Source: Owenia fusiformis
Taxonomy: Eukaryota > Annelida > Polychaeta > Sabellida > Oweniidae
Reading direction: 5' to 3'
DNA length: 64,000 nt
Assembly (NCBI GenBank): GCA_903813345.2
Contig: CAIIXF020000006.1
Coordinates: 34,013,524-34,077,523, forward strand
Under the pieces are notes generated by a model. It did no database searches and was not told the origin of the DNA. It saw only the letters and a list, made by a program, of their open reading frames with translations. Each line of letters starts with the position of its first letter. The stretch's first letter is position 1. This document shows, piece by piece, positions 7,638-60,817 of this stretch. The position numbers were made by a program, and so were the translations under genes.

Positions 7638-7815
7638 TATCCGTCTGCCGAGTGCTTATTTCATGGCATTTCTCTCTAAAATTTGAATAAAGTCCCGGAT
7701 GTTCATGCATTATTGTACAATTTGGAATGTTTTCTTAATCATTCTTTATTTTATTCCGAGCGATTATGAATCATTTTACTCATTTTCTGTTTTTAAAACT
7801 TGACCGCCATTCGCT
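7638..7815 (+). repeat. Interspersed GCAGACGGA-family repeat, copy
   Basis: The conserved terminus TCCGTCTGC is at 7640-7648. It is followed by tttctctctaaaatttgaataaag, a gcattattgtacaatttgga block, and an ending of tttttaaaacttgaccgcc. Confidence 0.7.
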
Positions 7816-8279
7816 TTCTCTGCGGGTAAGGTCGACAGTGGTATGGGAATGATTTCATGATGACAAAGTAGGGGTTTAATTGTTTCAACGATTGTTCATT
7901 GGTAAGGATTATCTTAAATGACAATAGGGGGAAAATAAGATCGTTACAAAGTAAAATATAGATTGCTCAGATTTTGAAATCACTCAACTGGGAATTGGGA
8001 TGATTTTACCCTTGAAGAATAACACAGTATGGCATATTATCTTCCAGAATCAACTTTTCATAATTAGACTCCAATTCAATCTAAAAAAAATGATACAAAT
8101 TCAAATTGAATTGATTCTAGATAGTTATAGATATTAAACATATGAAATTCACTTAATTTAAAAAATTATATAATTTCTTATATTGATAAATACAAGTGGG
8201 CAAGGGTGCCAAAGTCCCATTATGACAATTATGAACCACCTACTGGCCATGATTAAAACATGATGGTCATAATTTAGAA

Positions 8280-8432
8280 TCCAATATTGAGTGAAAATGA
8301 GTGAAATAGACAAGAAATGGAGGAAACAGGTATGAACTAGAAACTCTAAATTATTTAGAAATAACATGAAATCAGACAATTCAATCAAATTTTAGAGAGA
8401 TATTTGAAGAATTACACATCAGCAGACGGACG
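8280..8432 (-). repeat. Interspersed GCAGACGGA-family repeat, copy
   Basis: It contains gtgaaatagacaagaaatggaggaaacagg, ctctaaattatttagaaat, atcagacaattcaatcaaattttagagaga in family order. It ends at GCAGACGGA (8422-8430). Confidence 0.7.
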
Positions 8433-9384: not shown

Positions 9385-9535
9385 TTTTGAAATGCAGATT
9401 TAAGTCAAAAAGAGTGGAATTAGCAAGGAATAAAGTAAACAGGCATGTAGTTAACATTCTAAATTGTTAAGAAATGTTAGAAAACCAGATACTTCATTCA
9501 AATTTTTGAGAGAAATTATATGAATAATCTAGAAC
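9385..9535 (-). repeat. Interspersed GCAGACGGA-family repeat, copy
   Basis: It is one of the cleaner copies: gagtggaattagcaaggaataaagtaaacagg, cattctaaattgttaagaaatg, ccagatacttcattcaaatttttgagagaaatta. The terminal 9-mer is absent. Confidence 0.65.
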
Positions 9536-10519
9536 ATGGGATGCATGGGTTGATGTCTTATTGTGCCTTTAAGTCAAGGAGACAATGGATCAAATGGACA
9601 ACAAGTGATGAACTCTGAATCATCGAAACAGTAGAAAATCAAAATCTCAATCAGGAAAGCTGGCGAGTGATTTGTTTTTGAATGAGGTGTATATATAGCG
9701 GTATAATTAAGTGAATACTGTGATTAATGAAGACCTAAAGTATAATAGGCATTGTCATGCAAGCAGTATTGTAATTCTAATGACATTAGACAACCGACTC
9801 GCCAGAGAAAACAATAGAATCAGACAACTGGGATTAAAACTAAGTTCAAAATAAGATTTAAGTAATGATTTTTCTCCGCTTTCTAGCTCGTAGGTGTGAT
9901 TTGCTTAGTTTCTGTTGAGATTTTAGTGGAAGTTTTCGTTAATAGACTTGTGAAGACACGATAACTGACATTATTGACCAATAAGTTTGTTGGATGTACA
10001 ATTGGAGATAAAATTGCCGTCACATCGAATATAAGTCTTATTCTATATAATCAATAAGGCATTATCTTTGGGCTGCACCGAGCCTTTGTTGTCGCTAAAA
10101 TCCAATCATTTCAGCGCAAATGCAGCGTCTTAACCCATTCTGACTTCAATTAAATCACCATAGTGGAAAATACAATAGAAGATCAAGCCGGTTTAAGACA
10201 AGGTCAAATTTTATTTTTTATTTCTGGATTTGTTTCATGATGATCTGGCAATCTTTAAACTAGGCTTAAAGAATGTGTGATAAGAATAGAGATGAATGGA
10301 TTAGTGTTCTGTGAGTGGTATCTTGAATAGATTTAATTAAATTGAGCTGTGGTAAGTGTGTATTTCTAATTTTGATTCCCACACATAGGTGTCTCTTGTG
10401 TTCTTATAATCCATCTGCTAATCTCTCCAATTAGTGCTGCCATCTTTTGGAGGAATATTCTTGCTGATGTTGTCCATTTGAAAAATTTATTAACATTAGG
10501 TTTTCAAGTTCACAGTATT

Positions 10520-10655
10520 TAAAAGATGAAATGAAGTAAAAACGCAGAGTGAAATAAGCAAAGAATAACTTATTCATACACAGAATCAATCAGCAAAATA
10601 ATTTCATTAAAAAAGCAAGAAATCAGTCTGTTCATATTTGAGAGTTGAAAAGTGA
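10520..10655 (-). repeat. Interspersed GCAGACGGA-family repeat, copy
   Basis: It has gagtgaaataagcaaagaata, aaaaagcaagaaatcag and ttcatatttgagag in family order. It is diverged. Confidence 0.45.
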
Positions 10656-11304
10656 GAAATAATCTATGTCAAATATCAGATATGAATGACATTCAAGCAT
10701 GAAGAATACAAAAATGATCCGACGTGAGATTACTTATCCCAGACTTAAATTTCTTTTTGGTCACGCTTTTCCTCCCCATTTTATTCTAGCATTTGACTGG
10801 GCTATTTATCATTTTTAACATTTTAGACAATTTGAATTGTTGACCACATGCCTATTTATTTTATTACTTCTAATTCAATATATTTGCTATATAAATTGCA
10901 TTTTATAATATGCCTGCCACGAGTTTTTCTTGGGCACTTTTGTGTTTTGTAAGATGTGAGATGCAATTTCCTTACAAATCCTCCAGATAACCATCTGAAA
11001 TTTTTAATAGGAATTCTTCCTTATCTTCAATATTGTCTTCAATTGTTTTGTCGTCAATCTGTATCAAGTTATTATAACTCGCGTCGTTCTTCTTTCACCG
11101 AAGATCCTATTTGGTTTCCAGATGAATAACAAAGCTCTGACGAAGACATAAAACCGACATTTAATGCATAGTTTTGGCTCTGGAAAGATAAATGGGCACC
11201 CCTAATGAAACTACAATGCTTATTATTGGCAACTATAAATAGAGGTTTCCCACATATGGCTGTAATTATCTAGGTGGTAAGGGCCAGATTGCTTCTGATT
11301 TTCA

Positions 11305-11475
11305 CCATCCTTATCGTCTGCTCACACTCACTTTACCCAATTTCTCTTTAAGATTTGAAGAAAGGATCAAATTTTATTTAATTTTTATATAATTTAGAGT
11401 ATAGACCTAATGCCTGTTTATTGTATTCCATTCATTTTACTCTATTTTTGATTGGAATTCATGGCCACCATGAAT
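11305..11475 (+). repeat. Interspersed GCAGACGGA-family repeat, copy
   Basis: tcgtctgctcacactcac at the start is followed by atttctctttaagatttgaag, tttttatataatttagagt and cattcattttactc. Confidence 0.6.
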
Positions 11476-11924
11476 TTGTTTACAGGGATTTCTGCAGAAT
11501 CCTTTCTATTATCTTCTCAGCTCTGGATTTCCATTGAATTTTAATTGATAGCCAGAGAAAGTTATTCCTTATGAAAGTCAAAATGCCCAAAGAGCATTAT
11601 AGTGCCAGATAATAGATTGTTCCACTCATAGATACCTCCCACCAAATCCCTACCCAAATTCTGGTGCAATGAACCAAGTTGGGCCTTATGAGAGACAAAC
11701 AAAAGAAGAAGAATACCAGATTTCTCATATGAAATCCAAAACCATGAAGATAGTATTAGCCTACTCCAAAGGCAAGTGTCCCAAATGGTAAGTATAAAGA
11801 CAGAGGAAGGCAATGGGGGAGACTGGGATTAAGATAATAGAACTGACCAGGCTTGGGATTAAGGTATTATTACTGGTCCTGCAGCTGTTGAAAGCTAGTG
11901 GCAGATCATGCTTAAAATTCCTGT

Positions 11925-12090
11925 CTGTTCTTGCTTATTCCAACCAATTTCTCTCTAAAATTTGAATGAAGTATCACATTTTCTTGCATTTTTATACAAT
12001 ATTAGATGTCTTCTCTATGCTTATATACTTTATTTCTCAAATTTTTCTCTCTTAACCACTCTATGTTGCATTTTGAAACATGACCATCAA
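11925..12090 (+). repeat. Interspersed GCAGACGGA-family repeat, copy
   Basis: It matches the family through tttctctctaaaatttgaatgaagtatc, attttcttgcatttttatacaat and cattttgaaacatgaccatc. The leading motif has decayed to ctgtctgttc. Confidence 0.65.
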
Positions 12091-30500: not shown

Positions 30501-31000
30501 NNNNNNNNNNNNNNNNNNNNNNNNNNNNNNNNNNNNNNNNNNNNNNNNNNNNNNNNNNNNNNNNNNNNNNNNNNNNNNNNNNNNNNNNNNNNNNNNNNNN
30601 NNNNNNNNNNNNNNNNNNNNNNNNNNNNNNNNNNNNNNNNNNNNNNNNNNNNNNNNNNNNNNNNNNNNNNNNNNNNNNNNNNNNNNNNNNNNNNNNNNNN
30701 NNNNNNNNNNNNNNNNNNNNNNNNNNNNNNNNNNNNNNNNNNNNNNNNNNNNNNNNNNNNNNNNNNNNNNNNNNNNNNNNNNNNNNNNNNNNNNNNNNNN
30801 NNNNNNNNNNNNNNNNNNNNNNNNNNNNNNNNNNNNNNNNNNNNNNNNNNNNNNNNNNNNNNNNNNNNNNNNNNNNNNNNNNNNNNNNNNNNNNNNNNNN
30901 NNNNNNNNNNNNNNNNNNNNNNNNNNNNNNNNNNNNNNNNNNNNNNNNNNNNNNNNNNNNNNNNNNNNNNNNNNNNNNNNNNNNNNNNNNNNNNNNNNNN
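30501..31000. other. Assembly gap (500 N)
   Basis: It is exactly 500 undetermined bases. The round number suggests a placeholder, so the true length is unknown. Apparent open frames through it are artefacts. Confidence 0.99.
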
Positions 31001-31929: not shown

Positions 31930-32110
31930 GATGTCCATCTGCACATGCTCATTTTATCTATTTTCATCCACTTCTCTCTAAAATTTGAATGAAACATTTG
32001 ATCTTTTGATGTTACTTCATAATTTATAGTTTAGCCCACATGACTGTTATGTTCCCAACTGCCTGGATTCACTAATTTCCTCTGTATTTTACAATTCAAA
32101 ACATGGACAT
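31930..32110 (+). repeat. Interspersed GCAGACGGA-family repeat, copy
   Basis: tccatctgcacatgctc, cttctctctaaaatttgaatgaaac and acaattcaaaacatggacatcc follow the family order. Confidence 0.6.
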
Positions 32111-32249
32111 CCATAATATTTTACTGAGGGTAATTACCTCACAGACTAATTAAACAATACCCCTGTCTTTGTAGTTCTGGGTAAGGATGGGTCATGATGA
32201 GATATAACTATTTGGCTCCTGTAAAGAAATGGTATTGATGGGGTTGCTT

Positions 32250-32410
32250 TTTAGAATGTAAAAAGTGTGGCAAATAGTGAAGAGAGCAAAGAGTGAACTA
32301 CATAGGCATAAGTCATTGCTCTATATTGTATGTAAGTCCAAGAAAGTCAAAAAGTTTATTCAAATTTTAGAGAGAAATCGCATGAAATTGGCAAGAACAG
32401 GCAGATATTT
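32250..32410 (-). repeat. Interspersed GCAGACGGA-family repeat, copy
   Basis: aagagagcaaagagtgaac, gtccaagaaagtcaaaaagtttattcaaattttagagagaaatc and agaacaggcagata match the family with a decayed terminus. An 83-codon open frame over it is not otherwise gene-like. Confidence 0.55.
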
Positions 32411-43383: not shown

Positions 43384-44130
43384 CACTTTTGATTACGTAT
43401 GGATCTCAATAATTATAATACGTTGTTGTATTGTGCTTTCCTTGGATTTGCTGGAACGTTATTTGATCTATGGCTCTCCATTTGGCTACAAAACTATTGT
43501 AATAGCGCCTGTTTGTAGAACGGAGACTGCATTGCGTTAATTCAATATTTTCTACTAATCTCAAGTAGTTCTGATTAGCTAGCATTGAAGAGCAGTTTTG
43601 GGTTGTCAAGCTATTGTTTAATAAACTTGGGGCATTATTCTCTGTGATTATTCTTGGGATATCTGAACAAGGTATTACTATAGAACTGTTTCTTAGACTC
43701 ATCAAAGATAAAGAAATCATTAAGATCTTAATCAGAGGATTCCCGAATCAAGGACATATTTTGATGGTTTCATATTTTTTAACAATGAGATTAAAAGTTT
43801 TGAAGTCACAATGGCTTTTTAACACTAAAGAATTAATTAAATTATGATGTTTCATTTTTAATGAGGTAATGAGAAATTAATTGATATTATGTTTAATACC
43901 ATTTTAAAATGAAGCCATTTGAAGCAACTTTTGTTTCTGACAGGCATTGATTTCAACTTTAATTGTAACTTGTGTCTTTATTGTAATAAAAAGTTAACGA
44001 TTTGCATTTAGATACAATTAATGCTAATCACTGTTTCAAGTTACATCTGTTGGAAAATATCACAATTCACTAAAGAAAACAATTTAATTGATTGTGCTTC
44101 TAATTTACATATTGATTTGACTATTTGCAG

Positions 44131-44590
44131 GAACATGTCTTCTAAAAGAAAAAACACTCCCATCAAACTCAGTAAAGACGAGATGTCTATCGAACAACAA
44201 GTAATGGCGGAGAAGCTCCATCAGGTGGCAGCACTGGCTGCAAGTGAAAATGAGGCTCAGAGCCCACAGTACGAGGAGTCCTCGTATGACAACACAGAAC
44301 CAATGAACAAGAAACAAAAACTGTTTGAAGATTCTGATGCTATAATGAACAATAACAATCTCAAAATGAACGGGCGTAAATCAATGGACACGATTCTACA
44401 GAGACTAAGCTCCAAAGCTAGTAGTGACAATAGCTCTAGAAATGAATCGCCTTCTCCCGACAGAATCTCGGAAACTGTACAGAAGGTTCTAGAAGACAAT
44501 ACTACTGCTCAAGATAAAGAAAAACACTTAGATGATATGATCGTTCAACTCCAGAGTCTAAAAGAAAAACTATCTACAGAAAAAAACCAG
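44131..44590 (+). CDS. SoxD: SoxD coding exon 1 (residues 1-152)
   Basis: The acceptor is ctatttgcag|GAAC and the donor CCAG|GTATGA, leaving phase 0. The exon starts 4 nt before the ATG, so at least one 5' exon must lie upstream. It encodes a polar N-terminus with MSSKR, an [11 protein letters not shown] segment comparable to the conserved basic/hydrophobic block before the SOX5/6 zipper, and [19 protein letters not shown], the recognisable start of the SoxD zipper. The coiled-coil register ends after about three heptads at the exon boundary. Confidence 0.93.
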
Positions 44591-47500
44591 GTATGATTAA
44601 TTTGTTGTATTTGATCAAACATTGCTTGTTTTATAAACCCAGATTGTATTTATAAAAGATCCAAACAAGAACAAAACTCTGACTGGTTATCATTGATGCA
44701 AAGTAAAATGTTGCTTCATCATTACAATAACACTGGGTCCTATCTATGGTAACTATAACCAACTTGGGAGTAAAATCTCATGGGACACGTTTTCAAAAAT
44801 GAAATTATGACAGATTAAGATGAATTGGTGAGAAATAAAGTAAACAGACATGACATCAACACTTCAAATTATGTAGAAATTCCAGAGAGTAAGATAGTTC
44901 ATTCGAATTTTAGAGAGAAATGGAGCGAAATGAGCATGATTTGTGAATTTTTTATCTCCAGGGGGGCTATCAATGTTCTCCATTTGCTCTCAAAATGTAA
45001 CGGAAATAAAACAAAATCAAAGACGAGTATTTGTGAGATAATAAACATCTGGGGATGAAGAAACAAAGTATAAGATAGCCACAGCCTTTTTAGGATGAAT
45101 TGATACCTTATATATCATCATAACAGAGGCTACTGTTACTCTAAGTGCATGCCGTTATCTTGAGTGGATGAAACTTTGTCGTTTCTACTCTTTATATTCT
45201 CTTCGCCCTATCTCTACCTTCTTTTCTTACATGTTTTACTAACTTTGTTTGAAAGCCAAGAATTGAACAAAGCGGTTATTTTCGGACTGTTTGACTGATG
45301 CTACTAATATTTTCCCAATTTGCGATTAAAAGGTGCTCAGTTTCTTCAGTTATTATTTTGTCCAGATCTTCAACAGTTTCATTTTCACGCTTTGAATTTA
45401 GAGATAATCAAATCATCTTAGCTTTGTGGATGTTAAGTATTGTTTCCTGTTATTTTCTTTCCAGATTGTTCTCAAGGCCTTTCTTACATCTTATCTCAGA
45501 AAGTATTACACATAGCTTAACCAGCCATAGCACTAATATAAGTGTAAATGAAAATATGGAAATCTGGTAGCTGGATTCTAATTAAGGATAAATTTTTATC
45601 TGGTGAAGTCTGAGATCCTTTATCCAATTTACAACTTCAAAGACAGCATGTGTCTTATGTTCGTTAACTTATATTGTACTGCGATGATTTGGTATTGATA
45701 TATTATAGCCTGTTCTGCATTTGTAATCCTAGAAATCTTCATAGGTGTAATCGAATGATCATAATTGGTGTTTGTAAAAATTATTTCGCCAACTTTTGGT
45801 TCATATTTTTTGATTGATTTTTTATGTTGGTTAATCATTTTTTGTTTATTTTCACAGTTGTTTTTTGTAAAGTTTTTTTAATGAAGGGAACAATGCAACA
45901 ATAAATAAAGTGCTTAACAATACCATATTTCAGTTCACAAAAGTGGCACATGCTTTTGGAATTTGACATACTGATCATATTAACCGTTGCTGCGGTTTAT
46001 TATGATACTCCATCGCAGGGATGCCCATATTTGGCGCAGCATAATTTACTAATATAATACAATACCAAAAATCTGTTCTAACACCCATGAAAGACAAGCA
46101 TATCTCTAGCAAAAGAATAACATCTTTTGTAGGAAACTGAAGCTGGCTTCCTTATGGAGTGCAAAAATACCATAAACATAGCCACTACCGCCCTTGTGAC
46201 AAGAAACAATGTTTCAAAATCACTAATTTACAAAATTCTACATAATTAAGAATATGTTTATTTAATTTTTTCAAAAATAATTATATTTTATTGTTTGTTG
46301 ATATTATAAGTTGCAATAGTTGGCGTTTTTAGTTGGAATTTTGGTAGATAATTGAAGAAGTTTCTTTATTTGGATAATCAATTAGGTATAAAGCAAAGAT
46401 GGTTTTGCTCAAGATGTATCCCTTTTATAAATATTATACTTAAGTTTCTTTGTGGTGTGCTTATTATCTACCTGTGCTATATTTGGACTGTAATTGCTCA
46501 TTAGTTGTTACCAGAATCCTGACTTTTCCCATGGAGGAAAAAACTGGGTCTTGTTTTAAAATGCAAAATGTGCTAGAAAAGAGTGGAATAAGCATGGAAA
46601 AGAGTATATAGGGTTAAAGTTAATATTCTAAATTGTATGGAAATGCAAGAAAATCAGACACTTTATTCAAATTCTTTTGAAAAATCACCTGAAAATGTTT
46701 AATCAAAGTGAATTTGAACAATGGGGAATCCTGTCTTTGGTTGGCTGCAGGTTTCCAAAAGAATGTGTTAATATCAATAATGGAATGATTTTCCACTTTT
46801 TATGATCTCTGCTTTCTGTTGTTGAACATTGATTTTGAGCAATGTAGTCATTAGCGCACAATTGTTTTCTCTTTTATGTCAGATAATTGACTTTTTGTTT
46901 CTTTACAATCACAGATGCTGGATGATTGAACCCATTTAGCACACATATCCTGAAGTCTTTAATTGACTTTTAGGTTATGTTACAAAATATAATAAAAAGG
47001 TATCAACTTTTTTTGACAAATTGGCATAATGCGGACTTCTTTAAATGTTTAAATTAAGTAGAATAGCAAGTAAATAGGTTGGAATAGAGGAAACAGTTTA
47101 TGTTATATTAAGTAAATATCATGAAACAAAGAAATAAAGTAAAAAATGAGAAAAAAGAATGATAATTTTGCAAACTGACATTTATGGAAAGTTTCTCTCA
47201 AGCCTGTATTGTATTGTGACTCTTGATTCATTAATGATTATGTGTCAGAAATTTTGATTGTTCCCAGAAAAAGGTTGATGATTTCGCTTCTGCGCTTAGA
47301 TTTGGACAATCATTAATGGCAGGAAATGCAAGTTTTAACAGCATTGATAACAATTCAAAGAATTCTCATCATTTTCTTAATTCACAAGAAATTATAGTTT
47401 TGTTGAATTAAGTATCTGCGATGATTTTCTACTCAACTCGTTAAGTTATCGGGCGTTGTACTAAATATAATTGTTTGCGTTTACAATCAATTTCCCCGAT

Positions 47501-50500
47501 TGGGGAAAAAAACACAATTAACGTCATCTAGAGTTGAATTGTTACAATATATTGACAGACTGACTCCAATTTAAAACGCTAGTAAGACAATTTCAAGTTA
47601 GAATAGATGATTTTATAGTGATTGTAGTATCGGGGATGTGGGACCCGCAATCAGTTACTGGGGTCTTTGTTATCAACTGTCCAACAATAAAACACATTAG
47701 CAGACTCAATCATGCTTGAATAACTGAAAATTGTTTCTTTTCTCCTCATTATTATCGTGCCTTTGATTTTTCTCATCTAACGAGGATTTAAGAATATTCG
47801 ATAATGAACAAAGAAGTTCTGTTAAGGGCCTCTCATTGGAAAGATATCCGTCTGCTCATGAACTTTTCGTAATTTCTCTCCAAAATTTGATTGAACTACC
47901 TGATTTTCTTGCATTTATGTATAATTTACAGTCTTCATTACAGTGTAATTTGCATTTTTCCTTGCTAATTCACTCTTTTATATGAAATTGATCATCTTCA
48001 AATTTGATCTCTGTATATCTTATGGATGGGCTGATTCATATGAATGATGATTAAACGGGATTGCAAATAAGTAGTTAAGTATGCTATCCAAGTATGTAAT
48101 AGAATTTGCTTTAAGACCCATTGTCTTTACGGTAAAGTCTTCTTGAGTTCTTTGATGAGGGATAATGCAGGCATGACCAGGTCTGGACAACCCATGAATT
48201 GAATCACAGGGAAGTCACGATTTTAAATACAAATAGAGTAGAAAAAGAGGATTTACCAAGGTGTAGGTCACTCAGGCATATAAACTATGTGGTTAAATTG
48301 TATATATGTGACAGAAAATCAGAGATACCTTAAAACTTTTTGTGAATGGTATAGTTTTAGTACAAGCATTATTTCAGTTGTTGCAAAAAACAAATGTTTT
48401 TGTCATCTGAGTTTATATAGATTTGGATGAAATACATTTATTTTTTAAGTTTTATGACCTTTTATGCCCTGGCTTTTCTTTTGTAAGCAAACATCATATA
48501 AATGAGAAACACAACACTAAATTATTCAAAACAAAAACTGATGATAAAATTGAAATAAATGCTTTGGTTTTCCTGTTTACTTTATTTTATTCATGGTTGA
48601 AGTCTTGCTTTCAGACTTGGGGTAAGGTTTCAATAAACAAAACATTCCGAACTAACAAAAAGTTGTTTTATTAATAAACAAACATTGTCTTCCAGCAATG
48701 TGTATTATACCCTCAAGATGGCTACCATATTGGTAGAATGCACAAATAGTTCACAAAAGTTCATTGGGGATTTTGTTTCTTTTTTGTTAATGTTTGTATT
48801 CTGTATAAGATAGGTACCCGTGATGAAATCTGGTGAAGATCACGTTTGGTCTCTCTTATGTTTATTGTTCGCTAGTGATAGAGTTACATTCTAGTTGAAT
48901 GAATCACTCATCTCATCTTTTAGTTATCATGAAGCTTCATCTTTGCATCAATTGTTTGCATCTTTATTCATCCGTCTGCTAAAGTGTCCGTCTGAATATA
49001 TCTATTTCGTGAGATTTCTCTAAAAAATTTGAATAAAGTGTCTTATTTTTGGGCATTTCTTTATAATTTTAAGTTTTGAGTCTATTTTTGTAATGTTTAT
49101 TTCTCGGTAATTCAACTCATTTTTACAATTTTTTGCAATTTAAAACTCAGTGAATGTGATGTGTTATTGATGAGTACCCTCTTGTTTGATTGAATGATGC
49201 CTGGGAACATATTGTATCGGTATTTGTCAATTTGAATTTTTATCAATTTTTTTATCACCCTGCGGACATCTGGGTGTCAATTATAGGTATCAGAATTCCA
49301 AGACATGCACACAACTTAAAAAGTTTAATAATTGAACTTTCTGATTATTAAAAAGTGAAAGTCTGAGCAAAAGAAAATTGAGAAGGCAAATTCAGTGCAG
49401 TTAATGCTATATATGGACATTCAAATTGCCAAAATATTAATTAACTAGCCAAGAAACAAGAAAAGGAACACATTTTGTGACCCATCTTGTACCTAGTTAT
49501 ATAGGGGTGTAGCACTTACCAAAATGTTTGGAAATTTTGATACTTAAGACAGCAGCATGTTTCATCTATCAATGCATATATCTTTTTCGGAAAGAACCCG
49601 TGCTTTGATTTGCTTGATGATTTTTGTTTGTAGTTAGATTGAAGCCGATCTTCCTACTGCTAACGGGTGGTCCCGTGGTTATTGAAATTGAAACAAACCC
49701 TCTCTTGAAAGCATGCACCTTATCTGACTTATTCTCCAGTGTTACACAATATAACACATGATTGTTTTATATTAAATAATTGATTTTTTATTTTCCATAA
49801 TTTTTATGAATTAAGAATAATATACAATTATTATAACTCTTGAGTTCTGGGATTGAAAACTTCCATTTATAATGATTTGGAAGTCTGGGATTAAAACACC
49901 GCTATTCAAGATGGATGCCTCAAAAGATAATGTACCAAAAAGCGTAAAAGAACAACAAACTTTAACCAACAAAATGTTATAGCTTTTCTTAATTTAGCAT
50001 TGCCCATTTGATCTAAAATAAATACAGAAGTGAGCTCGAATATTTTGATATATGAATACTGGGGATGATTAGTACATGACAGGGGAGAGAAAACGTGATA
50101 AAAACAACAAGATTCCCTTAACAACATAGTATCTTTTTACCCAATTATCCTCTCTGTTTATTTCAAATAATGCAGGAAATACACCTTCCCAATACCACTC
50201 TAGCTCTATAAGAATAACATGGCCTGGCTACCATATGTTTTAAGCTATGATATTATAGCTTTTTTCCTTTATTTCATCTTTACCTACGTCTACTTCAAAG
50301 TACAAATTCAACAGGAAATTGTTACAGGTTTAGGTGTTAGATGTTTAAATAGAATTCTTATGACTTAATGTTTTTATAAGCAAATTTGTTGAATAATATT
50401 GAACATTGCTTTTCATTTTGTTTTATTTTTAGGGACTATGTGAGAAATTTATAATTTCTCAGAATCTTGTTTTGCTTTGGAAGAAGGGTCAATATTCTTT

Positions 50501-53500: not shown

Positions 53501-56500
53501 TTGATATTCCAGATAATTGATCATGATGATTTTTGAGCCTAATCACATTCAAGAAATAACGAGCAAGGTTGTTAATCTGACGTGATACATTTTAATAAGA
53601 CCGATCATAATTGCGCTTATGTTTCTTGTCATGATAATTTATGGAATTCAAACAATTGACTTTGTTATTAGAATATCAAGTAAGAAGTTTGCTTTGACAC
53701 TCAGGTTCAAGCCAAATGATAGAATTTCTGCTGAGATTTGCTGGGAATGAAAATTGATACAAATACGATCTATGAATAAGTTTAAATGAATTCATGCTAT
53801 TATTGTTTGTCGGTTTCCTTTAAACTCAATGCCTTTTCTTTTTTAATGTTCATTAAGAAATTGAACTCTTGAAGTGTTTTCATAAAATCATGCATGAGGA
53901 GAAATAGATTTTTTGAATGATCATATCTTTTATTTAAATGATAAGAAGAATGCCTATTATTGCACGTGAAATAGAACACTATTGATTTCATGCGATGTCC
54001 TTAAAAATAATACTATTAATATACCCTATTATAATTGGAAAGTCATTTTTCATTCTCGGATATAAAGGTGGCATGATTTGGCTTAAGTTGGTGTGAAAGG
54101 GCTGAAAAGGGGATCACCCATTTATAACAATTATCCTTTATGGTTAAACCGAAAACATAAAAGATCTGCCCACAATGAGTGACCAGTAAACAATTCAAAC
54201 AACAATATTTGAACATTAAAATAAATTTGTATGGATGTCACAAAAGGACAGCCTTAATTTATCAAAAATTCACAAAAGAAATTTTGACAGAGAAAATAAG
54301 ATAATGAACAATAGGGGTCCCATAGTTTATTGTGGGTGCCAAATTAAGGGCTCAGAGGGTCTCAGTTTATAGTAAGGGCATGAACTGTCCTTAGGATTAT
54401 TTCAGGCTCGTCCTTGTTCTCTTTGTCCATGTTCATTAGACGTGTATTGTTTGAGAAACCTTTCACCACATGCATGAACTTTGGGCAATGGTCAAAATTA
54501 AAAAATATATATCATCGATTGACCAGTCAGAGACGATGGGTATATTGTTTTCAATCTATTGTTCTCACACCTTCAGACTGTTAATAACCATATACATCAA
54601 TTTCTTTACAAGTTAATAATTTGTATTTAACACACATTAAGAACTTTCCCATGATAAAGGAATAATTGATCTTCTGGTAAGGAGTAGCATGGGCGTAAAG
54701 GTGTAAATTAATAATGATTAACCCAAGGTTTTTAACAAGCACACCTTTATTTAAAGGTTTGCTGTCAATTATTTTTTCTGAATATTTCCTACATGGCTCC
54801 TTTAAGGCCCTTTCTGTTGCCTTATAAATCCTTATAAATTTTTTATCATATCAGATGGAATGTTAATTAGTAATTTCACTGTGTAATAATTTAACACCCC
54901 ACAGTAGCTAATCAGTTGAAAAATTCCTATTTTCTCATATTCTTAAGTCAAATCAGATCTGCACACATATAGACATCTGGGGTTTAATTAAGAAATAATC
55001 CTGTTCACCTTTATGATAAGTAAAGAATGATTTGTGCTTAGTATCTCCCCATGTTTGAGATACCTGCTTGAGAATGCGTCTATTTTGAGGTCGATTTCAT
55101 AGTTTTATGTCTCGTCTGTAATCTGTTGGCTCATCGTCACCAGGGGGCCGTAGGTAAAAATGACGGGCACATCTTTTAGCTTATAATTGGCTGCTTTATC
55201 CCGCTAACAGAACCGACAGATAATCAGGTTTGTTCCGAAAAAACAGCAGGGTTCGCAGTATTTTCTGAGTTCTTCACCTATTTTCTTGCGTTAGTTATCT
55301 CTCTTTTGGTTTGAATTAAATTCTCCCCGTTAGTTGTCATAAATCATCGCCATTCTTTCTGACAGTTTCAATGATTAAACTAAAGATCATTTTCATATCC
55401 AGTGGCTTTTCTTGATTTTAATACTCATTTAGCAGTGATACTTCCTGCAAATTATGCTCTTGTTAGACCTTTCAGAATGCTAACTGCCTGATAAATCCAT
55501 CATCTTTTCTTCGCATTTTCTCTGTGTAATTTCAATAGAGTGTTTGATTTTCTTGCATTTTTATATGATAAAAAGTCCAGAGTCCTTGCTTTTTCACTTA
55601 AACAATTATCATGTTCTCTCTCTTTCACTATAGTTTGTGTTTTGAAATATCTGTTTTTTTTCATGGGCATGCTCCATGCTTTCCTGATGAGACTTGTTTA
55701 TCATTGACCAACATAGGGGGCACATAAGATGCATTTTGTGTAATTAAAACCTATTTTTTAAATTGGAAATAGTTTGTGGTTATATTTATTCAACAAGGAT
55801 GCTGGGTGATTTACTGACTTAGAGAAATAAGGATACATTGTGTTGTAAATTAAGCAAATGTGTTTTTAATTGAAAAATCTGTGACTTATTGTTTTTCACT
55901 TTCTTTATTTCAGACTTGACTAACCAGTCCCGTAGCTCTGCAAATTCACCCCTTGCCACTCCATGCTCTACCTCACCATGTCACTCCCCGCAATTGCACA
56001 TGTCACCACATACAGCAGCGCCACCTAATGTCAACTTGTGGAACAACTCAGGGTTACCCATAATGCACCAGCATCACCAGCAGACGGATGATGACCAACC
56101 GCTCAATCTCACTAAGCCAAAGTCCAGTAGTGTGGGTAGTCAGCGAGCTGCGTCACAGATCATCCAACGCTCACCAGAGACTGAGAACCCACGGGAAATT
56201 GGACAAGAGAAGGCGTTGGCTGCACCCCCTCCAGCTCACAGCAACAGCACCTGGAAGAAGCAGTCTCCATTGGCATCACCCCATGAGATGGCACGTCAAC
56301 CTTTCGGAATTGTTCCACCGTTTTCACCTTACTCAGGAATGTCACGCGCCACCCCTGCGATGTCTGTCAATAACATGATGGCCCATCACAGAAGCCTCTC
56401 CCCCAAGCACTCTCCCCCACCCCCCAGTCGACAGGAAACCAAGTCTGGCTTAGATAAATTACACGTAGGTCACAATCATCCACTTAGTCACCATGAAAAA

Positions 56501-59500
56501 AATTTCACATACCATAATTATATCACAATATTATTATTATTATTATTATAGTATATTAGTATCACAATTATAAGCACCCAAATTAGAAAATCCAGTGTAT
56601 ATAAATGAAGCTAACTATCCTTGGTTTTACATGACAGGAAAAATGATGTGTATTTCTTTTGTAACCTTCAGGAGAAACTTGTACAAGAGACTATGGCTCG
56701 CCAAGCGGCAGTTAGCTCTGCAGGTGGCGCACTCTTTTATCCTGGTTTACCACTCCCCATGTATGCCAACACCCCAACGATGGTCCCACATGGGATGGGA
56801 ATGCCAATGATGAGGCCAGAGAAATCGCAAATGGAGATGCCCAAAGAGGAAAGTCAAGATGGCGGCTACGTGCAACACTTGCAAAGTAGGTTGATGGAGG
56901 AATCGGCTGGGGATACAAGTAGGTCCATGTTTTAGATATATCCTTGCTACCATTTCATGATGCTCAGGCTTTAACTTTTGAATTACGGTACATCATTCCC
57001 CTCTATCTCAAACCTTTAGAAAGGGGAGAGGGAGTGGGAAAGGGGGAGGTTTTTTATCTCCTTGTGGGAGGGCACTGAATGGGATATCACTGGGCGGCTG
57101 ACATTAATGCAATAACAATGGAAGTATACAGTTATGTACATGTATTATAGACTTTATGGAAAGGAACTCATTATAGTGGGAAAAAGGATGAAATATTAAA
57201 TTGAAATACAGAGTTGATTATCAAATGAGCATCATCTTATGAATAGCAAGGAAACGCTGCTTTGCCTTACTGTCATGACATGTAATCTTCACTCCTTCAC
57301 TGTATTTTGTCACATTGATGTGTCACCTGTGTTTTTGTCACATTTTCATGTCACCTTTGTAAGTGTCACATTTTGCTCTCCTATTGTAATGACATCGCAG
57401 CTTGTAGTGGCTTTTAGATTTAGAATTTGTAAGTGATTTGTAAGTCTAAATAATTAAAAGTCTGCACCATGCAACACAGCTTACTAAAAGATTAAGACTA
57501 CTTAATTTATGCAAACTCAAATAGATGTTAAATTACTAATATTCCACACAAATTTTCTATTTATTTGTTAACATTTTATGGAAATAAATTGTTTATTAAA
57601 GAGATAATAAAACAATTGTTCATCCATTATTTCAGGTAAAATGTTTGGTGCTAAGATTATTAGGTCCCAGAAAGAAAAGAATGACCCGAACAAACCTCAT
57701 GTGAAGCGACCAATGAATGCCTTCATGGTTTGGGCACGGGAAGAGAGACGCAAGATTCTCAAGGCCTGCCCCGATATGCATAACTCTAACATTAGTAAAA
57801 TTTTAGGTAAGAATAAAAGATTATTGATATTTAGAACGTAGTTTTTTGTGGTTTGGGTTTATTTTGTTTGACTATAATTTCAGTATTAAAAACAAAATCA
57901 AAATGTTTTTGAAAACTGATCGATGCAATGTTATGAAACATTTGATGTAAAAATTTTAGGGGGTTGTTCAAAATATTTTACGATGAAGGTGCTGAGAGGG
58001 TTGTTCAAAAACTAATTGTTTTGATTCTAACAGGGTCCATGTGGAGACAAATGACTGATGAACAGAAGGCGCCTTTCTTCAAGGAGCAACATCGATTGAG
58101 TGAAATACACAAAGAGAAATGTAAACAATTATTGGCATTTTTGCCTGCGGGGAAACTTTAGATTGCTAGAGCATCATATTGAAGATGCTTGCATTCTAAT
58201 GTTCGCTCCGTTTTTGCAAGCCAGTCTCGTCGCTAAATAAATGTATCATATCTTAAACAATTTCTCAAACTATAGAACTGACACGCTAGAATTTCAAGTT
58301 TTCAAAATTTTGATTTTTAAAAAATTTCATTTTAAGTTCTGTGTGTTATTTGGTTTTCATACATAGACATTAGAGGTGTGATTTACTTGATAGATCAGGT
58401 TTTAGCAGTGTGACAGATATTTGGCATAGAAGTGTGGGATTTAGACAGATCGGAACAGGGTTACTGGCCTATTCTAGTCGTTCATACGACCCTTAGACTT
58501 CCTAGATTTTCCCATAATTGCTTTAGCTCTGCTATGCATGACTGAGTTTATACAAATATGAATGTGTGTTGAGTAGAATGCATGAACCACAAGCTATCAA
58601 AGTTTTCTTCTTTCAATATTTTTCTCAGAAATTTCTTAGAATTTTCTCAGAATTCTTTTAACTCCACCTAGAACTGTCTGTATTAAATTTCTTCATCTTG
58701 CATGTTGAAACTCTTTTTACCGATACTATTCTTTTTCAATGTCCAAGCACAATTCTTGAAACTACCTCATTTTAAAAATATCTCCATAATCTTTCTTTGC
58801 TCTCTCTGCTCAGCATTATATTGAAATCTTGCTGCCTTTAACGCAACTTGAACATGTCCCGTAATACATCTTAAGATGCCAGTAGCCTTTTTCCGGGGCA
58901 AAGGTTTGAGATATGAGAAAAAGCGATCAGACATTTATGAAATTCTGGCTATGTATGCATGACTTTTTCCTTTTAGATTTTCCTTCCAATATGACCCATG
59001 AACTTAGGAGACATCTATTGAAAGCATGAATTAATATTTCTATCAATTGAATTTAAAAAAGAATTAAAAAAAATCTCATAAAGATGGCGTAACATACCAA
59101 CAAAGAAAACATCCTATATTTCTAAGAAATTAAAAACCAAAAATGAGAAGACTAACTGACCAGCATGAATTATTAACATAAAAATTCATAGGAATAAAAA
59201 ATAAAGCATGTTGTAGAAAATTGAATTTTCAATACTTTATTTTAAAGTTTTCTTTGAATAGTTTAACCACTCATTTTTCTGTTAAATCTTTCCCGAGATA
59301 TGATACATTTATATCAAGTTTTAATCTCGACAACATGAAATACAAATTCATCTTTTGAACAAGTCTCATCCTTTAGAATGATTAATAATCCAGTTGCATT
59401 CATTACTTCATCATTACAGGCTTCCAGATGGAATTAACCAACCAAAGATCCCATTGGATTCACTCCTTGCTCAGATGGACACCCCACATTCAATTCATTT

Positions 59501-60817
59501 TCATGAACCACCACAAATAAAACAAGCAATAATTCCCCTACCCCTTTTATCATTACACCTCAAGTTTAACATTGAGTTTGCTATATGTTTACCCTGTCTG
59601 TTTTTAAAGGTGCTAAATGGAAAGCAATGTCAAATGCGGATAAACAGCCATTCTACGAGGAACAGTCACGGTTGAGTAAGATCCACATGGAGAAACACCC
59701 TGACTATAGATACAGGTAAATATACGTATTGAGACGTAAAAAAATGAAATAGGTTTGCATTTTGTTTACCACCAATACTGGTGATCAATACCTCTTGGTG
59801 TCCAAATATCAATCAATAAAACATGAATAATTTGTTTCACTGCCAAAATATTTACTCAACAGCACATTCTCTGATCATGACCAATAATGACTAAGTATTT
59901 AAATTAAAGCAAAGTTCTACTATAAATTATATTGCAAATCATTTTATTCCAGACCTAGGCCAAAGCGCACCATCTTTGTTAATGGAAAGAAGATGAAGCT
60001 CCCAGAATACAAGGCTCTGATGAAACAGACCCGTAACACTAATCTGGGTTCTTTCTATGGGCAGGAGTCACCCAGCTTTGCCCCTACCAGTATGCCTAGC
60101 CATTGTAAGTAATAAGTAAAATATAATATCTAGATTTAAAAACCTTGAACTAATTATATTAATAAATGTGCCTTAATAAAAGAAAAATATAACTTTTTGA
60201 TGACTTCTGATGATTTTGAAATTGTTAACGAATTGATACATTTTATAAATAAACTTTTTAATCAGCGTCGGGAGCTATTTGAAAAAGGAAAGATTGTATG
60301 ATAGTATTTGTGAAACAATGCATGTTGTTTTTTTTAACTGTATAATTATATGTAAATGTCTTGTAATTGATTTTGTGAGGAAAACAAGTGTTTGGTTTGA
60401 AACACAATAAAATCTTGAATCTTGTCTATGAAGTAGTAATGGGAGAGTGAAATCAGCAAGGAATTGATTCACAAGAGATCTCATTTGTATTTTTCACAAA
60501 AGTATCAAGGTGATAGTTATTAAATGAAACATGTTCTTTTTTCAGCAAATGGATCATCTCCGCCATCTTTATTACCCAGCATGCCATCTACTTCCCCTAA
60601 TCAGTTTATGGGAATGGGAGAACCATCACACCTTGCTGCCCAACACGCAGCATTTCTCCAGCAACAACACCTTCAGCTTAGAAATCTTAGACATGAAGAG
60701 GACATGGCTAAAAGCCGTCCCAATGACGATGATGAGGATGATTTAAGTGACTCTAGTGCCGACAATGTGTCTGAAAATGTATTCCCCGAGCCAACCAGAA
60801 TGGAGACTGCCTCCTAG
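44135..60817 (+). CDS. SoxD: SoxD-family HMG-box transcription factor (8 coding exons)
   Basis: Spliced CDS assembled from 44135-44590, 50970-51009, 55914-56464, 56672-56918, 57636-57806, 59610-59715, 59953-60104 and 60546-60817. The sum is 1995 nt, giving 664 residues and a stop, with every junction in phase. SoxD proteins (Sox5/6/13) are nuclear, sequence-specific DNA-bending factors that bind AACAAT-type sites, usually without a transactivation domain of their own. Family marks, in order: MSSKR start as in SOX5/6; residues 128-146 with leucines in zipper register; PLNLT at 228-232, like the PLNLS CtBP-binding motif described for SOX6; HMG box about 454-530 with [24 protein letters not shown] and PDYRYRPRPKR; acidic tail 635-640. 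It is shorter than vertebrate SOX5/6 and lacks most of the zipper and Q-box. The start is chosen because ATG 44135 lies 4 nt into the exon in good context (A at -3) and matches the SOX5/6 MSSKR. An upstream start in an unseen exon remains possible. Confidence 0.95.
44790..44935 (-). repeat. Interspersed GCAGACGGA-family repeat, copy in SoxD intron 1
   Basis: gatgaattggtgagaaataaagtaaacag, aattatgtagaaat and cattcgaattttagagagaaat match the family. Antisense to the gene by the orientation used here. Confidence 0.6.
46555..46690 (-). repeat. Interspersed GCAGACGGA-family repeat, copy in SoxD intron 1
   Basis: ttttaaaatgcaaaatg, gagtggaataagcatgg, attctaaattgtatggaaatgcaagaaaatcagacactttattcaaattc. 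It is among the best-preserved copies, lacking only the terminus. Confidence 0.7.
47845..48005 (+). repeat. Interspersed GCAGACGGA-family repeat, copy in SoxD intron 1
   Basis: The intact terminus TCCGTCTGC is at 47847-47855. It is followed by atttctctccaaaatttgattgaac, gattttcttgcatttatgtataattta and ccttgctaattcactctttta. The AATAAA found in other forward copies is mutated here. Confidence 0.75.
48220..48350 (-). repeat. Interspersed GCAGACGGA-family repeat, diverged copy in SoxD intron 1
   Basis: agagtagaaaaagaggatttaccaagg, aaattgtatatatgtgacagaaaatcag in family order. Confidence 0.45.
48968..49155 (+). repeat. Interspersed GCAGACGGA-family repeat, copy in SoxD intron 1
   Basis: Two termini lie in tandem (TCCGTCTGC 48971-48979 and TCCGTCTG 48987-48994). 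They are followed by gatttctctaaaaaatttgaataaagtgtc and an ending of tttaaaactcagtg. AATAAA at 49032-49037 is on the sense strand of the intron. Confidence 0.75.
50970..51009 (+). CDS. SoxD: SoxD coding exon 2, 40-nt microexon (residues 153-166)
   Basis: It has a strong acceptor (ttttcttttctactttcag) and donor CCAG|GTATGT. It encodes [13 protein letters not shown] plus the first base of Asp166. It enters in phase 0 and leaves in phase 1, which is exactly what exons 1 and 3 need. That agreement is the main evidence it is real. Confidence 0.85.
51027..51230. repeat. TGATTGTTTG-rich imperfect tandem array
   Basis: TTGATTG/TGATTGTTTGGTCA units are arranged in longer repeats with agtgactgcttgat (51065 region and again near 51123). 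Seven ATTGTT hexamers (AACAAT on the other strand, the SOX core) fall in about 190 bp. Confidence 0.8.
51510..51605 (-). repeat. Interspersed GCAGACGGA-family repeat, partial copy in SoxD intron 2
   Basis: ggtggaataaagtggatttagcaagg and cttttaagaaatgcaagaaaat match. The rest is missing. Confidence 0.4.
52095..52222 (-). repeat. Interspersed GCAGACGGA-family repeat, copy in SoxD intron 2
   Basis: aattgtacaaaaatgttggaaaatcagaaactttattcaattttttgata precedes two tandem termini, GCAGACGGA at 52196-52204 and 52212-52220. This mirrors the doubled terminus at 48971. Confidence 0.7.
52820..52935 (-). repeat. Interspersed GCAGACGGA-family repeat, diverged copy in SoxD intron 2
   Basis: gtgagaaattgcagtgagaatgcatgg, aattctatcaaaatgaaaaacatgacac in family order. 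Confidence 0.4.
55138..55148 (+). promoter_or_regulatory. CTCF-like core motif
   Basis: CACCAGGGGGC matches the core of the conserved CTCF consensus (CCASYAGRKGGC) except the first C. It lies 766 bp upstream of exon 3, in a relatively GC- and CpG-rich patch. Occupancy is inferred. Confidence 0.35.
55470..55660 (+). repeat. Interspersed GCAGACGGA-family repeat, copy in SoxD intron 2
   Basis: gcattttctctgtgtaatttcaatagagtgtttgattttcttgcatttttatatg and gtgttttgaaatatctg match. The AATAAA is mutated to AATAGA. Confidence 0.6.
55914..56464 (+). CDS. SoxD: SoxD coding exon 3 (residues 166-349)
   Basis: The acceptor is ttctttatttcag and the donor TTACAC|GTAGGT, leaving phase 0. It encodes a Ser/Pro/His/Gln-rich linker with many SP dipeptides (possible proline-directed phosphosites) and [14 protein letters not shown]. 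The latter aligns with the QPLNLS.KPK segment of SOX5/6, which binds CtBP corepressors in SOX6. Base composition is much richer in GC than the flanking introns, supporting coding status. Confidence 0.92.
56465..56671 (+). other. SoxD: SoxD intron 3 with (TTA)n microsatellite
   Basis: 207-bp GT-AG intron. A TTA trinucleotide run lies at 56531-56549. Confidence 0.85.
56672..56918 (+). CDS. SoxD: SoxD coding exon 4 (residues 350-432)
   Basis: The acceptor is tgtaaccttcag|GAGAAACTT and the donor GATACAA|GTAGGT, leaving phase 1. It encodes [14 protein letters not shown] and a Met/Pro-rich stretch ([20 protein letters not shown]). It then encodes an acidic/polar segment ending in [13 protein letters not shown], in the position where SOX5/6 have a second short coiled coil. 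Confidence 0.9.
56919..57635 (+). other. SoxD: SoxD intron 4
   Basis: 717 bp. It contains a purine-rich patch near 57019-57050 and a short TGTCAC-containing repeat at about 57305-57375 (TTTTGTCACATT recurs at about 35-bp spacing). No other feature. Confidence 0.85.
57636..57806 (+). CDS. SoxD: SoxD coding exon 5, first half of HMG box (residues 432-489)
   Basis: The acceptor is cattatttcag|GTAAAATG and the donor TTTTAG|GTAAGA, leaving phase 1. It encodes the N-terminal strand and helices 1-2 of the HMG box ([18 protein letters not shown], then [13 protein letters not shown]). SoxD-type signatures are [18 protein letters not shown] and the [15 protein letters not shown] run. C476 replaces a phenylalanine usual in vertebrate SoxD. 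This exon is shared by both predicted isoforms. Confidence 0.97.
58034..58161 (+). CDS. SoxD: Alternative terminal exon: second version of HMG-box second half
   Basis: The acceptor is ttgattctaacag. Exon 5's final G plus GG gives Gly489, then [28 protein letters not shown] and [13 protein letters not shown] before TAG at 58159-58161. About half of the first 31 residues are identical to exon 6, including W, M, KxPF, EQ, RLS, IH and EK, the positions that build helix 3. No donor follows in frame. The product would be about 530 residues, lacking PDYRYRPRPKR, its basic nuclear-localisation cluster and exons 7-8. Most likely a tandem exon duplication used as an alternative 3' exon. A decayed duplicate is possible, but the open frame, phase and intact acceptor argue against it. 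Confidence 0.75.
58236..58241 (+). terminator. SoxD: Poly(A) signal for the short SoxD isoform
   Basis: AATAAA lies 75 nt after the stop of the alternative exon. T/GT-rich sequence follows at about 58335-58370. It would define a short 3' UTR for the truncated isoform. Confidence 0.5.
59610..59715 (+). CDS. SoxD: SoxD coding exon 6, canonical second half of HMG box (residues 489-524)
   Basis: The acceptor is gtctgtttttaaag|GTGC and the donor TACAG|GTAAAT, leaving phase 2. It encodes [35 protein letters not shown], the third helix and start of the C-terminal tail of a SoxD HMG box. It aligns residue for residue with vertebrate SoxD. Confidence 0.97.
59716..59952 (+). other. SoxD: SoxD intron 6
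   Basis: 237-bp GT-AG intron. Nothing else seen. Confidence 0.9.
59953..60104 (+). CDS. SoxD: SoxD coding exon 7 (residues 524-575)
   Basis: The acceptor is attttattccag and the donor CCATT|GTAAGT, leaving phase 1. It encodes [20 protein letters not shown] and KALMKQTRN, the conserved post-box SoxD motif (vertebrate counterparts read RPRPKRT..VDGKKLRIGEYKA.M), then a Ser/Pro-rich linker. Confidence 0.95.
60105..60545 (+). other. SoxD: SoxD intron 7
   Basis: 441 bp. It carries a fragment near 60435-60475 (gggagagtgaaatcagcaaggaattg) that matches the start of the interspersed family. Confidence 0.85.
60546..60817 (+). CDS. SoxD: SoxD coding exon 8, C-terminus (residues 575-664) and stop
   Basis: The acceptor is gttcttttttcag. 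It encodes a Ser/Pro/Met-rich segment, a Gln/His/Leu stretch ([18 protein letters not shown]), an acidic patch [12 protein letters not shown] (from 634) and the end [10 protein letters not shown], with TAG at 60815-60817. The acidic patch parallels the acidic C-terminal region of SOX5/6, although the last residues are different. Confidence 0.93.

Follow-up and report, generated by a model that had tools for sequence, protein, structure and literature searches.

In the SoxD gene of the annelid Owenia fusiformis the exon that encodes the C-terminal half of the HMG box is present in two copies, and the upstream copy probably arose by duplication of this exon and serves as an alternative last exon. 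Reading the sequence in this way, we give this explanation a probability of roughly 0.62. The gene lies in the window, by which we mean the whole stretch of 64,000 bases of contig CAIIXF020000006.1 that was analyzed and to which all positions refer. We propose that the second HMG-box exon of SoxD was duplicated in tandem and that the upstream copy, from 58034 to about 58260, now serves as the last exon of a second transcript, in which exon 5 would be spliced to 58034 and the RNA would be cleaved after the AATAAA at 58236. The predicted product is a shorter SoxD, which would retain the N-terminal region, followed by an HMG box that is almost complete but has a different third helix, and would end in 13 distinct residues that replace the PDYRYRPRPKR tail and all that follows it.

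A detailed inspection of the sequence indicates that the gene in the window is SoxD, and its predicted exons are listed in Table 1. The canonical box, composed of exons 5 and 6, finds SOX5 (1i11) as its best PDB match with an E value of 5.6e-42, and an approximate SOX6 query aligns with both HMG-box exons and with exon 7. The same query matches the 5' coding exon weakly (E 0.003), and this exon ends with a coiled-coil-like stretch. In detail, the exon with the PLNLT motif, which we take to be a CtBP-binding motif, the exon preceding the box and exon 5 form one continuous frame without a stop, and the canonical chain continues from exon 5 through exons 6 and 7 to the last coding exon. The phases of the 5' exon and the PLNLT exon are incompatible, which means that one or more exons in this interval are unplaced, strongly diverged or very short. 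No convincing Q-rich coiled-coil exon, as is usual in SoxD, was seen between 44.6 and 55.9 kb. The window also contains a run of exactly 500 N at 30501-31000, for which a scaffolding gap or a withheld stretch is possible.

Table 1. Predicted features of the SoxD gene in the window; a slash marks an exon boundary.
Feature	Position	Strand	Remarks
SoxD 5' coding exon	44135..44590	+	open frame 44012-44593; donor CCAG/GTATGA
SoxD exon with PLNLT motif	55914..56464	+	open frame 55874-56548; TTCAG/ACTT, ACAC/GTAGGT
SoxD exon preceding the HMG box	56672..56918	+	open frame 56615-56932; TTCAG/GAGA, ACAA/GTAGGT; frame suits both neighbours
Exon 5, first half of HMG box, common to both forms	57636..57806	+	phase 1 end; Pfam HMG_box positions 1-35, 48.2 bits
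Second HMG exon, alternative copy; 42 residues starting with the common Gly, then TAG	58034..58161	+	frame; Pfam HMG_box positions 36-66; one genome copy found; constraint
Probable 3' UTR following the alternative stop, AATAAA included	58162..58241	+	GC 0.432 in 58162-58235; change-point 58233
Canonical exon 6, second half of HMG box and start of PDYRYRPRPKR tail	59610..59715	+	AG/GT flanks; box 88.9 bits
Canonical exon 7, PRPKR tail plus the SoxD part downstream of it	59953..60104	+	absent from alternative form
Canonical last coding exon, acidic C-terminus and stop	60546..60817	+	absent from alternative form

Exon 5 ends in phase 1 inside the conserved KILG motif, with the donor context AAAATTTTAG/GTAAGA cutting between KIL and G, and the two downstream exons finish the same Gly codon in the same phase, just as the first-pass annotation of this DNA had described it. 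The alternative exon begins at 58034 behind the acceptor context TTCTAACAG/GGTCC, and its stop codon ends at 58161. Over 29 codons it aligns with the canonical exon without any gap, and 15 of the encoded residues are identical. At the level of DNA, 32 of the 87 bases differ, with 9, 8 and 15 differences at the first, second and third codon positions, respectively. Beyond GAGAAA none of the next six codons compared encodes an identical residue, so that the earlier count of about 15 identities in 31 aligned positions was correct, and the last 13 residues of the alternative exon have no likeness to the canonical exon. The homologous part contains neither a stop nor a frameshift. It had also been claimed that the stop is followed by an AATAAA 75 nt further on, and this signal is indeed found at 58236-58241.

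With the alternative exon as query, the whole genome (498,259,871 bases in 525 contigs) yielded five matches. The exon itself comes first and the canonical SoxD exon second (E 0.0035), followed by three further boxes of the Sox type with E values from 0.013 upwards. As the canonical SoxD exon is the best genome-wide match after the exon itself, the homology is not due to chance. The runner-up as a source is an unsplit box with an E value of 0.013, presumably of the Sox30/SoxH type, and the sequence alone separates an origin from SoxD (0.0035) only weakly from an origin from this box. Nevertheless, we rejected a copy derived from another Sox gene, because the position, the phase and two residues favour SoxD: the alternative exon retains Gln in EQ and Ser in RLS, and among the nine comparison boxes only SOX5 has them at these columns. 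At the DNA level, the alternative exon together with the preceding intron finds nothing but itself in the genome. There is no second SoxD among the five matches; the HMG-box model has 29 matches in the genome, of which eight stretches were fetched, and a second SoxD among the others is conceivable. Seven of the fetched stretches were readable and two of these are apparently halves of one gene, which leaves six second halves for comparison. One of the loci, L007 (G000:C8:1953045-1954082), has two HMG-box matches in an open frame of 630 residues and looks like an HMG gene whose two boxes are not separated by an intron. Another one, L008 (G000:C1:14730421-14730588), has a 65-bit match to positions 1-56 of the HMG box and an in-frame TAA, which suggests either the end of an exon read into its intron or a broken copy; it is the stretch that our filter removed from the comparison. 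Contigs of bacteria, archaea and viruses, scanned with peptide patterns derived from exon 5 only and thus blind to the alternative exon alone, contained no true relative. The sole pattern match, in a Planctomycetia bin (L011), was discarded, as it has 11 residues in common, little else and no Sox box.

The fit of the predicted product to the Pfam HMG_box profile (69 positions, curated cut-off 25.4 bits) supports a second homologous HMG exon that is in phase and ends the protein. Alone, the alternative part reaches 21.6 bits (E 3e-4), which is below the cut-off. Together with exon 5 it reaches 81.0 bits and covers positions 1-66, compared with 88.9 bits for exon 5 plus the canonical exon, so that the alternative form passes the cut-off and extends into helix 3. 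SOX5 (1i11) is again the best PDB match of this composite (E 2.1e-29), and the short protein is expected to adopt the HMG-box fold, with an altered helix 3. The complete three-helix box of the first-pass annotation is supported in part: most of helix 3 is present, while the final three positions of the profile are lacking, as is the conserved tail. Sox proteins carry a basic tail of the form P-x-Y-x-Y-x-P-R-P/R-K after helix 3, and this pattern is visible in the Sox boxes that we compared. The spliced alternative product has no such tail and ends without the C-terminal region and its acidic end, in agreement with the earlier statement that PDYRYRPRPKR is replaced by 13 other residues and a stop and that the C-terminus is lost. 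In other Sox proteins the tail after the box contributes to DNA binding and contains a signal for nuclear import. For the short SoxD a weaker or altered binding and bending of DNA is likely, perhaps together with a reduced nuclear import.

The signals around the alternative exon were scored with an approximate splice-site weight matrix, and all scores depend on it. With this matrix the acceptor of the alternative exon scores 3.5, compared with 0.85 for the canonical exon and 3.2 for exon 5. It ranks sixth among the 98 AG sites between 57830 and 59700, and one of the five sites that score higher lies inside the exon itself (58084); hence the score permits the use of 58034 and does not prove it. 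No donor with a score above 0 is found inside the alternative coding exon, and the only one within 58034-58400 is at 58376 (GAG/GTGTGA, score 3.9), 135 bases past the start of the ATG after AATAAA; for scale, the real donors at 57807 and 59716 score 4.6 and 4.4. Homologous exons in tandem that are entered in the same phase are typical of mutually exclusive exons and are found here. In such a pair each copy is also flanked by an acceptor and a donor, and by this matrix the alternative exon lacks the donor; it combines an acceptor, an in-frame stop and a poly(A) signal as alternative last exons do. An AATAAA lies within 110 bases of 15% of random points in the window, and therefore the signal by itself is weak evidence. 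The GC content is 0.269 in the preceding intron, 0.421 in 58034-58235, 0.267 in 58236-58295 and 0.317 in 58296-59609. Within 58034-58235 the homologous part has a GC content of 0.425, the tail one of 0.390 and the stretch between the stop and AATAAA one of 0.432. The best change-point falls just 5' of AATAAA, with a modest log-likelihood gain of 3.5. Equally GC-rich stretches of 202 bases make up 372 of the 58,729 non-exonic ones in the window (0.6-0.9%); the 74-base UTR stretch alone is mildly GC-rich and matched by 2,702 of 59,907 non-exonic stretches (top 5%). Exon-like GC from the acceptor to just before AATAAA fits the expectation for a terminal exon; the use of the exon in RNA and cleavage near the position given above are inferred. 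The intron before the alternative exon does not fold better than its shuffles (z 0.80; 166 of 200 fold as well).

To assess selection, the alternative and the canonical exon were compared by pairwise codon maximum likelihood under four settings, which gave a dS of 1.74-1.82 and a dN/dS of 0.20-0.27. An omega of 1 was rejected (p 0.002-0.017) and an omega of 0.5 was not (p 0.08-0.27). Since the canonical exon is itself conserved, we also fitted a model with separate branches, in which the best omega of the alternative branch was 0.3-0.5 and the p value against 1 ranged from 0.03 to 0.38 over nine settings. When the canonical branch was modelled as constrained and the synonymous clocks were set equal, the alternative branch had an omega of about 0.3-0.4 and a value of 1 was not rejected (p 0.08-0.10). 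In the dN/dS analysis suggested in the first-pass annotation the pairwise omega against the canonical exon is below 1, and the omega of the alternative branch does not differ clearly from 1 by rate alone. The rates alone are no proof of constraint on the alternative copy.

Stronger evidence for selection on the copy than the rates is provided by the amino-acid outcome of the changes. We simulated neutral decay of the canonical exon down to the observed base differences (within 1) and accepted 24,743 copies, with an ancestor assumed to be equal to the canonical exon at the protein level and with the 29 codons only. The alternative exon fits eight other Sox boxes with a score of 68.5 and the canonical exon with 76.5, whereas the neutral copies have a mean of 10.3 (sd 12.3). 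If the exon had been duplicated long ago and the copy had decayed neutrally without ever being used, the branch-specific rates would be no obstacle, as they do not clearly differ from 1, and 839 of the 24,743 neutral copies attain an identity of at least 15/29. However, only six of them attain the observed BLOSUM similarity to the canonical exon and none the observed fit to the other Sox boxes, which makes such a relic very improbable. A smaller first simulation was consistent with this one for identity and stops, and in it 0 of 412 copies attained the BLOSUM similarity. As 15% of the neutral copies are free of stops, the absence of stops is uninformative. Furthermore, the retention of residues tracks the conservation of the sites: the residues kept in the alternative exon tend to be the Sox-conserved ones (one-sided p 0.006 for all nine comparison boxes, 0.016 when SOX5 is omitted and 0.019 for SOX5 only; L007 was included in this test and excluded from the simulation of 24,743 copies). 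Selection on the amino acids of the alternative exon is thus supported, and together with the profile match the simulation bears out the idea of a second HMG exon that closes the protein.

A constraint of this kind is an average over the whole history of the copy and is compatible with a recent loss. It is conceivable that the exon was for a long time one of two mutually exclusive exons with its own donor and that, after the loss of this donor, it persists as a remnant that is spliced rarely or not at all. A good donor is absent near the homologous place, where 58376 is the only site above 0 in 58034-58400, the homology stops at GAGAAA short of the end of the canonical exon, and a lost or moved donor together with 13 last residues unlike the canonical ones would also fit a decaying exon. 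On the other hand, the acceptor is present and scored above the canonical one, the homologous part is free of stops and frameshifts, and the exon-like GC continues up to AATAAA. We consider a recently retired exon unlikely, but with a real chance of being correct. The donor-like site at 58376, which scores near the real donors, might instead join the copy to the canonical exon as a poison exon, whose stop would lead to nonsense-mediated decay and to a lower dose of SoxD. HMG-like amino acids would be unnecessary in this case, yet they have been retained, and GC is at the level of introns from about 58236, well 5' of 58376, which leaves this explanation a slight chance. The homology also ends beside a GT at 58121 (AAAT/GTAAAC), and a cryptic donor at this place would create an 87-base cassette of phase 1-1 that preserves the frame and would be spliced in series with the canonical exon, adding 29 residues and doubling helix 3. 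This donor scores -1.7 and a second helix 3 would probably interfere with the folding of the box, so that an in-frame insert is hardly credible.

If the alternative last exon is used, its choice might be under the control of an RNA structure. A perfect inverted repeat of 17 bases connects 58237-58253, which includes all but the first base of AATAAA, with 59296-59312, about 300 bases 5' of the canonical exon, and inverted repeats of at least 17 bases occurred in 0 of 300 shuffles of 57807-59609. Pairing of the two arms in RNA could hide the AATAAA once the region before the canonical exon is transcribed. The window contains five other perfect inverted repeats of at least 15 bases within 2.5 kb, some of which share words as in a dispersed repeat, and therefore the 17-base repeat is a lead only. 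That SoxD switches its own third helix by an alternative last exon, with a tail-less and C-terminally truncated product, and that this switch is maybe set by RNA pairing, is in our view doubtful as a whole. We also looked for a mobile element starting from the repeat and dismissed it, as 58162-59400 matches only itself in the genome (common words skipped). The 17-mer has 45 genome matches with at most one mismatch, compared with 17 for its reversed control, and besides the two arms described here no two matches lie close together among the matches listed. It is possible that the repeat is the relic of an old mobile element. Elsewhere in the window, perfect inverted repeats of 16-19 bases were observed at 7671-8400, 9488-11975, 31972-32376 and 46641-49043, and several of them share words such as TCTCTCTAAAATTTGA and ATTCAAATT, which suggests a dispersed repeat family.

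Through its N-terminal part the short SoxD may still be able to meet SoxD partners and might act as a tuning or antagonist form. A dominant-negative action is a guess, because the N-terminal part of the gene is only partly visible and the stretch of 44.6-55.9 kb revealed no Q-rich coiled-coil exon. If the alternative exon is used, we would have a Sox gene that varies a fold-forming part of its own HMG box through the choice of an exon. The same choice would couple the variant box to the loss of the tail and the C-terminus and thereby provide a built-in modulator of SoxD targets, and the duplication of half a domain would have created a regulator without the duplication of a gene. For its detection the exact RNA junction is given by 57806-58034.

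Among the genes suited for comparison, UBF is a Pol I factor with several HMG boxes and egl-13 is the SoxD gene of C. elegans. Several transcripts, as predicted here, have been described for other SoxD genes: the HMG box is present in all isoforms of Sox102F of D. kikkawai (PMC11297484), egl-13 uses alternative promoters and a common stop codon (PMC3685541), and human L-SOX5F lacks 35 amino acids outside the known domains, next to a SOX5 variant without the coding exons 12 and 13 (PMC4063782). A duplicated HMG exon is not described for any of them in the available parts of these reports, and it is likewise not mentioned in the accessible text on SoxD of echinoderms (PMC11218330) and Drosophila (PMC6127262). 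This is consistent with the first-pass annotation, which knew of no described SoxD isoform of this kind, as far as the open-licence literature goes and among the matches listed. Splicing within an HMG box is known from UBF2, in which 37 amino acids of box 2 are removed (PMC10558777), but there the box is altered by a deletion and not by a substitute homologous exon. Alternative exons for DNA-binding domains are already known from FOXP1 and unc-62. The exons 18 and 18b of FOXP1 are mutually exclusive and encode part of the DNA-binding domain, and their exchange alters the DNA-binding preference, with exon 18b preserving the reading frame (PMC11701043). FOXP1-ES and the SoxD gene would thus both exchange exons of a DNA-binding domain, in FOXP1 within a forkhead and with the frame kept, in SoxD within an HMG box and with a copy that ends the protein. 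In C. elegans the mutually exclusive exons 7a and 7b of unc-62 encode part of a TALE homeodomain and are used in a stage- and tissue-specific manner (PMC3585033; PMC3685541). Both are internal exons that continue into the rest of the protein, in contrast to the alternative exon of SoxD. What appears to be new here, as far as our literature search reaches, is that such an exchange would take place in a Sox gene and that a variant half of the domain would be coupled to an early end of the protein.
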